A stretch of DNA of 64,000 nt from Roridomyces roridus (Eukaryota > Basidiomycota > Agaricomycetes > Agaricales > Mycenaceae). Below, one piece after another: positions 10,191 to 12,540 of the stretch; the first letter of the stretch is position 1, and every line of letters begins with the position of its first letter. The notes beneath the pieces are model-generated. The model searched no databases and was not told the DNA's origin. It saw nothing but the letters and a program-made list of their open reading frames with translations. The DNA is taken from NCBI GenBank assembly GCA_029378245.1, contig JARKIF010000121.1, positions 37,425-101,424 of the forward strand. Reading direction: 5' to 3'. The position numbers were made by a program, and so were the translations under genes.

Positions 10191-10195
10191 ACACC
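10191..10195. repeat. Target-site duplication, left copy (ACACC)
   Basis: ACACC immediately before the TGTTGGG start of the left LTR. The same five bases follow the right LTR at 11585-11589. Confidence 0.9.
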
Positions 10196-10388
10196 TGTTG
10201 GGAATAGGCCTGCTGTGTGAACGGAGAAACCACGGGCCTGGGAGTATTTAGAACACCGTGTATTTGCTTCTACGGCTGCGCCGTAGTCTGCGCAGAGCTG
10301 CGGCGCAGCATTGCATGTAGTATATATACGGGGGCTTGCAAGTGCAAGTCCCCCAGCTCCTGTATTAGATCAGTTGTCAAATTCAACA
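10196..10388 (+). repeat. Left LTR, 193 bp
   Basis: Starts TG and ends CA. It contains a CTACGGCTGCGCCGTAG palindrome near 10270 and a TATATATA motif near 10320 that could serve as the promoter TATA box, followed by GGGGGCTTGCAAGTGCAAGTCCCCC, itself an inverted repeat. It is the same length as the right LTR. Confidence 0.92.
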
Positions 10389-10400
10389 GGTTATGGGCCC
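10389..10400 (+). promoter_or_regulatory. Primer binding site, half initiator Met-tRNA type
   Basis: GGTTATGGGCCC abuts the left LTR. It differs at one base from the complement of the initiator Met-tRNA anticodon-arm segment (GGGCTCATAACC). Copia/Ty1-class elements are known to prime from an internal tRNA-iMet fragment rather than the 3' end, so this fits the copia assignment made from the gag. Confidence 0.75.
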
Positions 10401-10536
10401 CGCACAATAGTCCTACCTTGACAACCTCCTCTCTTCCGCTCCCGCGCTGCACGGTATTGCTGTGGACCGACGAACCGACGAAACCGAACTGACGAATTGA
10501 ACCGAAGAACCGACGAATTGAACCGACGAACCGACG

Positions 10537-11322
10537 ATGGACGACGAACGAGCTGTGAATACGAAGGGTGGATTGAAGTTGGCGGACAATGTGACGTATG
10601 ATGATTGGGAATTCGAGACGAGGGCGGATCTGCGGAGGAAAGGTGGCCCGAACAGCAAGGCTGTCAAGGCGTGGGTTGCCAAACGAGATGTTGCGACGGC
10701 AACGATCATTGGCCGACTTGATCCGTCCCAGTTTGCCCATATCCGTGACTTCGAGGAGGATCCTGCGGGAATGTGGGACCGCTTGAGGGAGACACATCAG
10801 AGCTCCGGGTTGGGAGGGGTTGTGGTGGCCTGGAGGAAATTTTACTCCCTCCGCAAGTCTGGTGACCGCTCCACGATGCGGGCGCATATTGGCGGCATCC
10901 GCGCACATGCCGAGAAGCTCGGCAGGCTTTATCAAGACAAGCCATCGGACGCGCAGATCATCGCGACACTGTTGATGTCCCTCCCCCCTGCTTACGACAC
11001 CTTGATCATTTCCTTGGACGCGCATTCGAAAAAGGATGACCTTGATTTTGTGATTGGTCGATTGCTCAACGAGGAACTCCGCCAGGAGGCCGAGTACCCC
11101 GACGAGATGGTCTCTGCTTCGGCATCTCCCGGACCTGCGACTGTGCTTGCTGCTCGCACGTACCGGGACAAGTCGCGAGTGACTTGTTTCAAGTGCCAGA
11201 AGCTCGGCCACTTCCAGACCGAATGCCCCGAGCCCGGCCCACTTGTGCCGAATCCTTTCATGTCTCGCGGGACTGCACCTACATCGACGGCGATTGTGTA
11301 TGTGGACACTATTGCTTTTTGA
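10537..11322 (+). CDS. Copia-type Gag with CCHC zinc knuckle
   Basis: A 261-aa open frame. Residues about 60-200 match the copia-type gag/UBN2 pattern: MWDRLRETHQSSGLGGVVVAW, RAHIGGIRAHAEKLGRLYQD and IIATLLMSLPPAYDTLIISL are family-typical stretches. A zinc knuckle, CFKCQKLGHFQTEC (CX2CX4HX4C), spans residues 217-230. The C-terminus ends YVDTIAF at a TGA; in full copia polyproteins the protease would follow such a segment. Gag packages element RNA into virus-like particles. The frame has no stop or shift, which suggests recent selection or recent origin. A full-length copia parent with the same LTRs probably exists elsewhere in the genome. Confidence 0.92.
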   Translation: MDDERAVNTKGGLKLADNVTYDDWEFETRADLRRKGGPNSKAVKAWVAKRDVATATIIGRLDPSQFAHIRDFEEDPAGMWDRLRETHQSSGLGGVVVAWRKFYSLRKSGDRSTMRAHIGGIRAHAEKLGRLYQDKPSDAQIIATLLMSLPPAYDTLIISLDAHSKKDDLDFVIGRLLNEELRQEAEYPDEMVSASASPGPATVLAARTYRDKSRVTCFKCQKLGHFQTECPEPGPLVPNPFMSRGTAPTSTAIVYVDTIAF

Positions 11323-11391
11323 TGGACTGTATTTCACTTCAGTGGGAGCTTTCATTTTTATTGTCTTTGGCACACAGCGGTCCAGTGGGAG

Positions 11392-11584
11392 TGTTGGGAA
11401 TAGGCCCGCTGTGTGAACGGAGAAACCACGGGCCTGGGAGTATTTAGAACGCCGTGTATTTGCTTCTACGGCTGCGCCGTAGTCTGCGCAGAGCTGCGGC
11501 GCAGCATTGCATGTAGTATATATACGGGGGCTTGCAAGTGCAAGTCCCCCAGCTCCTGTATTAGATCAGTTGTCAAATTCAACA
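11392..11584 (+). repeat. Right LTR, 193 bp
   Basis: Same length as the left LTR with two visible substitutions. It is preceded by the purine tract CAGTGGGAG and followed by the ACACC target copy at 11585-11589. Confidence 0.92.
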
Positions 11585-11589
11585 ACACC

Positions 11590-12540
11590 CTCTAGCTGAG
11601 AAGAGCGCACAGCCACGACCTCATTCAGACAAGCGCACTTCTCTCTGGCCAGCGCATGTCCAACCCTTTCCTCCCGTCCCTGCCTCTTCTTCTTCGCTTA
11701 AGGATGCATCCATTCCTCAGAATAAGCATCCAACATCCCTCGGTCCAGCCATCGTCTGCGAGAAAGAGACGCGCATGCAGTGCGAGAACGCCGGCGTTGT
11801 GCCCGAAGGCGAGGAGGCGGACTTCGAGGGTGCTCCCCACGTGTCTCCTATCCCCACCGCCCCCGTCGCATCTGCACCGCCAAGCCCGTTAAAGGCGCCA
11901 CCACCAACGCGAGGAGTGACAACCGCAAGCACGAGAAAGCACAGGCCAAAGGCCGAGAGGCAGACAAAATCAAGTTCTCTCTCCGCCTTGCCTCTGTCGT
12001 TGACGGCGGCCTGCGCCTGCAACCCATGCGGGTGCAACGTTCTTCCGTACAGATTCACCCAACGCTCTCTGGCGCTCCCTACTAGGCGCGACGGACTGAC
12101 TGCGCGGCATACCCAACGCGCGGTCGAGCTTGGATGGGCTTCTTTCGTCGGGAACAGCTGCCACCAGCGCTTGCAAGTGTGCAAGTGCATACGACGACAG
12201 TCAAGGCAGTCTCCAGCGGCGGTCTGCGCCTGCAACTCATGCGGGTGCAACGTTCTTCCGGACAGATTCACTCAACGCTCTCTGGCGCTCCCTACTAGGC
12301 GCGACGGACTGACTGCGCGGCATACCCAACATGCGGTCGAGCTTGGATGGGCTTGTTTCGTGGGGAACAGCTGCCACCAGCGCTTGCAAGATGATGTGCG
12401 AGTGCGACAACTGGTGACGACGACGACGAGGCCAATATCCCCGACTTCCTGTCGGAGCCCTCTTCAGTCACAGGAGCTAGAATTATCAGGAACGACGACC
12501 AACACGTCCGTCCAAGGATAGGTCCACGGTCAGTCATTCT
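11590..12540 (+). repeat. Tandem duplication of a 213-bp unit in an open frame
   Basis: A segment starting near 12010 recurs near 12223. The shared core runs from CTGCGCCTGCAACnCATGCGG to CCACCAGCGCTTGCAAG and differs at a few bases. The period is 213 bp (71 codons), so one plus-strand frame (11775-12521) reads both copies in register, each with CACNxCGCNVLPxRFTQRSL. I recognise no family, and no exon structure links it to the clathrin relic downstream. It may be a fragment of a low-complexity or repeat-bearing gene. Confidence 0.5.

Follow-up and report, generated by a model that had tools for sequence, protein, structure and literature searches.

A gag-only family of copia-type LTR elements in the genome of the mushroom-forming fungus Roridomyces roridus

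Known relatives of a fungal gag-only element

Many non-autonomous retroelements drop their genes and retain only signals acting in cis. TRIMs, which share with the element described here short LTRs and a small internal part, are not known to code for any protein, whereas this element codes for Gag; a gag-less relative, C2, is considered below. The closest described plan is that of the plant TR-GAG elements, reportedly presented by Chaparro et al. in 2015: two LTRs, a single Gag open reading frame, no pol and a non-autonomous way of life. One of them, AT5TE33540 of Arabidopsis, has been observed to transpose and is highly similar to the autonomous AT3TE48480 (PMC8704663). In barley, BARE2 is described in PMC3735527 as an element without Gag, which it borrows, and BARE1 as producing also a spliced Gag-only RNA; capsid and enzymes come there from different partners, as they would in the fungus, although BARE2 lacks Gag while the R. 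roridus element keeps Gag and misses the enzymes. Non-autonomous elements in general are treated in a survey of fungal LTR elements (PMC3248453), and LARDs in a survey of Laccaria (PMC3411680); among the open-access papers that literature searches listed, none reported a fungal TR-GAG or other LTR element with gag alone.

The window, a stretch of 64,000 nucleotides, belongs to Roridomyces roridus (Mycenaceae, Agaricales), whose genome (90.8 Mb in 501 contigs) was searched for copies; its positions 10191-11589 hold a complete 1,389-bp copia-type LTR element flanked by ACACC (Table 1). The original prediction had named 193-bp LTRs with two differences, an exact 5-bp target duplication, a half-tRNA-iMet-type primer site and a purine tract, and all of these are in place. 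The primer binding site GGTTATGGGCCCCG, which adjoins the 5' LTR directly, is the complement of CGGGGCCCATAACC and complementary to the genome's tRNA-Met as identified by ARAGORN; the tRNA pattern CGGGGCCCATAACCCC occurs six times in the genome, and the single occurrence cut out is a tRNA-Met according to the same program. The pair of GTGGGAG motifs is present in all seven copies scanned, including the gag-less C2. That no room is left for pol was also correctly foreseen: the element has none, since between the stop codon of gag and the 3' LTR there are 70 bases, and pol in the copia order (PR-IN-RT-RH) is absent from it, the copia label being due to its Gag, its 5-bp duplication and the type of its primer site. 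The Gag frame matches Pfam Retrotran_gag_2 (6.5e-22) and zf-CCHC (9.2e-6), that is, a copia-type gag domain with the CCHC knuckle by which the Ty1/copia superfamily is recognised.

Table 1. Anatomy of the gag-only element, in positions of the window
Feature	Position	Strand	Basis or remark
Target-site duplication ACACC, 5' side	10191..10195	.	exact 5-bp match to 3' side
5' LTR, 193 bp	10196..10388	+	2 differences from 3' LTR
Primer binding site GGTTATGGGCCCCG, half-tRNA type	10389..10402	+	complementary to the genome's own tRNA-Met
Leader before gag, four ACCGACGAA-like units	10466..10530	+	at most 1 mismatch per unit
gag ORF, 261 aa, 786 bp	10537..11322	+	Pfam matches
In-frame 14-residue gap in gag relative to siblings	~10642-10645	+	sibling alignment
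CCHC zinc knuckle, Gag residues 217-230	11185..11226	+	zf-CCHC
Upstream copy of the GTGGGAG purine motif	11342..11348	+	motif scan
Polypurine tract GTGGGAG, touching 3' LTR	11385..11391	+	
3' LTR, 193 bp	11392..11584	+	2/193 positions differ from 5' LTR
Target-site duplication ACACC, 3' side	11585..11589	.	

With two LTRs, a primer site, a polypurine tract and a target duplication, with Gag as its sole coding region and with a multi-copy family built on one plan, the element works like the plant TR-GAGs; it differs from them in kingdom, in the lack of a matching autonomous element here and in a Gag lineage common to free-standing Gags of other fungi. Drosophila copia is an autonomous element, whereas the window element has Gag only. 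The two Gags are homologous over nearly the whole profile (VLP protein structures 8vvw and 8s41): the family profile matches 8vvw at positions 4-252 of 255 with E 1.4e-23, and the top Foldseek match is again 8vvw (E 1.7e-5), with low TM-scores of 0.32 and 0.47. Domesticated host capsid genes of the Arc or PNMA type were considered as well; a gene of that kind, fixed and devoid of LTRs, is ruled out by the LTR pairs, the separate target duplications and the solo LTRs of the family. Just downstream of the element, two units of about 185-189 bases with 93% identity stand in tandem (window 12004-12405; L001 3314-3498 and 3527-3715).

Copies, solo LTRs and the search for an autonomous parent

Copies are named here after their contigs, C26 being the window copy. 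Two-LTR elements were found also in C471, C212, C112, C454 and C290; identity to the window element in DNA is 96% for C471 and 85% for C212, and identity to its Gag is 78% for C112 and 57% for C454, the latter over 11-201, with the frame broken beyond. An exact 5-bp duplication of its own flanks each of C26, C471, C212, C112 and C454, and the sixth copy, C290, which is split, carries AGATC on both outer sides. The LTRs of a pair differ at 2/193 positions in C26, 0/193 in C471, 1/195 in C212, 0/225 in C112, 1/193 in C454 and 0/185 in C290; by this measure all six copies are young. Gag stop, purine tract and 3' LTR fall within about 110 bases in these six and in C390. The proposal of a non-autonomous gag-only family is thus supported by siblings which share its plan and have target duplications of their own, and neither of the outcomes named in advance as telling against it was seen: the element is not alone, and its copies do not differ in their deletions. 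The expected set of copies, each at a different target duplication, exists; the conserved open gag expected with them is there only in part, as gag is split in C290 and its frame broken in C454. The split copy (C290:133730-147759; L004, L005) has about 12.6 kb inserted in gag between LTRs which are still identical, so that this large insert is probably recent.

Other copies are less complete. In the related C469 and C390, the gag DNA is 83% alike, and an LTR pair was not seen within the stretches read; the former keeps the 5' LTR with its primer site and the latter the 3' LTR right after gag. C57 and C162, 99.7% alike, represent a single older copy in which foreign DNA has been inserted behind gag; this stretch of about 920 bases, from gag to the 3' end, was considered as a pol remnant and rejected, its ends looking like those of a DNA-transposon insert and no pol-like frame being visible in it by eye. 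In C466 the gag stop is followed by a few bases, GGGGGAG and then TGTTGG; C1:3227158 and C480:546026 have the junction of polypurine tract and LTR in common with the gag-only elements, but otherwise matches of only 15-17 bases.

Three further kinds of element were met in the same genome. C2 (L085 102-950) is a gag-less, TRIM-like relative with LTRs 95% alike, GGTCC on both sides, a preserved primer site and 3' end and an internal part carrying repeats of 66-112 bases; the pieces that it retains suggest that the needs in cis are the LTR, the primer site followed by a leader of about 100 bases, and some 60 bases ahead of the 3' LTR that contain the double purine motif. C66 (L075; also C224, C190 and C334), the copy read, represents another, distant family with gag alone; it has LTRs of its own, 269-base repeats with 98% identity, flanked on either side by AGGGC, as well as a pair of zinc knuckles and a different primer site. 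When its Gag is the query, long-ORF copias (from 5.5e-25) follow its own family and precede the C469/C390 and C26 groups, an order which counts against a single gag-only origin; because of the other primer site and of a Gag closer to long-ORF copias in the search, the C66 family may have arisen independently. Finally, C86 (L077 384-2836), 2.45 kb long, has two identical LTRs of about 174 bp and a single 639-aa Gag-protease frame, from which integrase and reverse transcriptase are absent; its Gag matches 14 listed places, 8 of them with frames of 639-640 aa (C86 is the copy read), it nests among the autonomous copias in the tree, and the family seems to derive from the copia lineage of C168.

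The other element that the prediction had called for, a full-length copia whose LTRs match, was not found. The LTR search gave at least 40 places (40 of 59 candidates scored), of which 32 distinct ones were examined, together with C323, an LTR with adjoining 3' end; 8 of the 32 are the LTRs of C26, C471, C212 and C290 and 24 are solo LTRs, and at none of the 32 is the LTR attached to pol. An exact 5-bp duplication surrounds 23 of the 24 solo LTRs (that of C412 differs at one base), which collapse by shared flanks to 17 sites plus C61; at C61 a solo LTR stands where C212 has the full element, between flanks 99.6-99.8% identical, as expected if LTRs had recombined at one site present in two haplotypes or in two duplicated segments. 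The junction of polypurine tract and LTR, CAGTGGGAGTGTTG, occurs ten times, eight of these being C26, C471, C212, C290, C112, C454, C57 and C162, and among the RT matches listed none lies within 4 kb on the same strand of any of the ten; an autonomous copia does adjoin C212, in the opposite orientation.

The primer site tells a different story from the LTR. AACA followed by the primer site occurs 80 times in the genome (reversed control, 0), and RT placement was set against 98 listed RT hits on those contigs: a copia RT lies 2-5.5 kb downstream on the same strand at no fewer than 33 of the 80 identical sites, a lower bound because the RT list scored 150 of 256 candidates, and at none of the 7 gag-only sites. 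The primer is therefore common to many copias. The Gags of long-ORF copias are only about 23-34% identical to the gag-only Gag, and no autonomous copia with the same LTR or a close Gag was found among those examined in the R. roridus genome.

Selection, relatives and C-terminus of the Gag protein

The check for selection on gag copies that had been suggested was carried out. By the NG86 method and Fisher tests on copy pairs, C26-C212 shows 39.0 changes at 186.5 synonymous sites against 20.0 at 596.5 nonsynonymous ones (pN/pS 0.16, p 7e-13) and C471-C212 gives 0.19 (p 1e-11), while C26-C112, C471-C112 and C212-C112 give 0.19, 0.21 and 0.19 (p 1e-42 or less); altogether pN/pS is 0.16-0.21 in five of six pairs, with p from 1e-11 to 1e-53, the sixth, C26-C471, having too few changes (3 and 4, p 0.37) to inform. 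The corresponding NG86 dN/dS is 0.14 for C26-C212 and 0.17 for C471-C212, the C112 pairs being near saturation. Gag is under purifying selection.

The Gag of the window had been described as one intact 261-aa copia protein with a CCHC knuckle; open frame, gag domain and knuckle stand, intactness does not, as 14 residues are missing which are present in C471, C212 and C112 and in the database relatives covering the stretch. The gap falls between helices 21-34 and 55-73 of the AlphaFold2 model of the C112 Gag; that model has a mean pLDDT of 81, with blocks of 90-97 over residues 21-100, against a mean of 71 and blocks of 59-72 over the same N-terminal region for the window Gag. As an element the window copy is complete; as a source of capsid it is probably defective, and it may rely on its siblings for Gag too.

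Relatives were sought among protein records with a length filter which favours free-standing Gags. With the Gag as query, 28 of 922 candidates matched, among them a full-length 280-aa relative from Mycena sanguinolenta, 64% identical; a sibling Gag searched against the 475-1510-aa class (4206 candidates) gave one match, a Mycena polygramma gene model of 735 aa with a zinc knuckle as its only Pfam match and without RT. An alignment search gave 351 proteins at 1e-10, and the 120 listed include proteins of Mycena, Trametes, Ganoderma, Hypsizygus, Hermanssonia, Somion and Pholiota and many from metagenomes. Some free-standing copia-type Gags (P0004, P0027, P0040) are filed under other names, one from Mycena sanguinolenta as "RxLR effector candidate" and two from Ganoderma sinense as "transcription factor", which is a warning to annotators. 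Searched back against R. roridus, P0030 finds free-standing Gag frames in its first 13 rows (3e-46 to 2.8e-17; 12 from the named copies and the C66 family, 1 from C179) before the first long ORF (1.9e-16), and P0095 finds five gag-only copies first (1.6e-34 to 2.5e-26), with long ORFs from 1.4e-23 mixed with the rest.

In a tree of 29 rows, 22 free-standing Gags, C66 among them, part from 7 autonomous or Gag-PR Gags at 99/99; in one of 81 rows, which includes 64 of the 117 knuckle-bearing database Gags, one branch sets off 8 autonomous or Gag-PR rows (97, starred) and another 72 free-standing Gags (93, not starred), while C66, whose branch is long, is placed next to the autonomous rows (93). 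The positions of C466 and C66, both long branches, are unsure, and the autonomous rows of both trees come from R. roridus only. On these alignments the nearest company of the Gag is free-standing Gags from other Agaricomycetes, and the autonomous copias sampled in R. roridus stand apart.

A recurrent feature of these proteins is their last residue. Among the 130 database Gags analysed (P0029 was dropped), a CCHC knuckle, called by pattern, is present in 117 and missing from 13; the terminal residue is aromatic in 107 of the 117 (F 53, W 48, Y 6) and in 98 of the 108 Gags of at least 230 aa, and its state (F, W, Y or other) changes at least 20 times on the tree of these 108. The R. roridus gag-only frames end in IAF (C26, C471, C212, C290), YIF (C112), YQF (C454), AAF (C66) or YAF (C466); non-aromatic ends are IYI in C57/C162 and VVL or IVL in C390 and C469. 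In autonomous and Gag-PR frames a like segment continues towards the protease: DFAF-M (C16), DFLF-L (C212b), HYGF-M (C112b), DAAW-C (C1) and DFAF-P (C86). Retroelement proteases often cut beside aromatic residues, and the gag-only frame would stop at a predicted cut site, where a protease would act; its Gag may thus be made already "processed" at the C-terminal end.

Candidate explanations and the worth of a capsid

The family is mobile and recent, Gag is all that it encodes, and gag is constrained. It is probably a recently active non-autonomous LTR retrotransposon family of the copia type with gag as its only gene, and on the best reading a fungal TR-GAG-like lineage which retains a capsid of its own but takes protease, reverse transcriptase and integrase from other elements, probably from the copias that share the primer. 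The element's own Gag would form at least part of the particles that carry the gag-only RNA; the tRNA-Met that serves many autonomous copias would prime this RNA too, and one of those copias would lend the enzymes for copying and integration. The young insertions and the shared primer fit such mobilisation in trans; no helper element was identified in searches of the R. roridus genome. Mixed assembly appears doubtful, and is the weakest link, because the Gags concerned are so little alike.

Among other explanations, that of a hidden autonomous parent in other strains or species, maybe with separate gag and pol frames, from which gag-only copies would derive repeatedly, is unlikely though worth weighing: selection could have acted in such a parent, outside those seen, the relatives are proteins picked by length, and plant TR-GAGs can have a sister element of this kind (PMC8704663), but pol was met neither at the 32 LTR places nor, as listed RT, near the ten CAGTGGGAGTGTTG junctions, and the long protein class yielded a single match, without RT. 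It is a good deal less probable that Gag is kept as a restrainer of copia particles, with mobility secondary, in the manner of the Ty1 restriction peptide p22 or of Drt2. Gag-derived restriction factors do exist (Drt2, an endogenised Ty1 capsid fragment, is so named in a PDB title) and constraint on Gag alone fits both roles; a whole Gag with its knuckle, not a C-terminal capsid fragment, has been kept here, and the full anatomy of LTRs, primer site and polypurine tract, together with young insertions, shows selection for mobility.

Slightly less credible again is a vestigial frame, left over in elements whose RNA is packaged by a helper's Gag and for which only cis signals matter. C2, with both LTRs and a target duplication, did move without a gag of its own, and C454, which combines young LTRs (1/193) with a broken frame, may therefore still have moved; against this stand the low pN/pS values with their strong p-values and the conservation of stop position and terminal aromatic residue among free-standing Gags. 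Internal deletions are common in LTR elements, and the C86 family seems to have come from a copia lineage; one chance deletion derivative of an autonomous copia is nevertheless so improbable that it has been rejected, being already contradicted by several sibling copies of one plan with their own target duplications, and by the separate Gag lineage in the trees. The element might also have arisen from a spliced Gag mRNA that was reverse-transcribed, for which the BARE1 RNA offers a precedent (PMC3735527); such an origin is possible but unnecessary, as the Gag tail is similar to what precedes the protease in five autonomous or Gag-PR families.

The reading as a TR-GAG-like lineage can be extended, tentatively and with doubts somewhat outweighing confidence, to the proposal that capsid-only retrotransposons are old, independent and widespread in mushroom-forming fungi (Agaricales and Polyporales at least), untied from any autonomous parent, with a Gag pre-cut to its mature end at an aromatic residue and with the use of any copia enzymes sharing the primer. 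Similar free-standing Gags occur in other mushrooms, and therefore capsid-only elements may be old there; C2 and other gag-less relatives may themselves live as parasites of the gag-only ones. A capsid gene kept alone under selection, without a visible autonomous parent, raises the question of what a capsid is worth to a parasite, the obvious candidate benefit being the preferential packaging of its own RNA; young copies with an open, a broken and an absent gag, side by side in one genome, make the role of the capsid testable.
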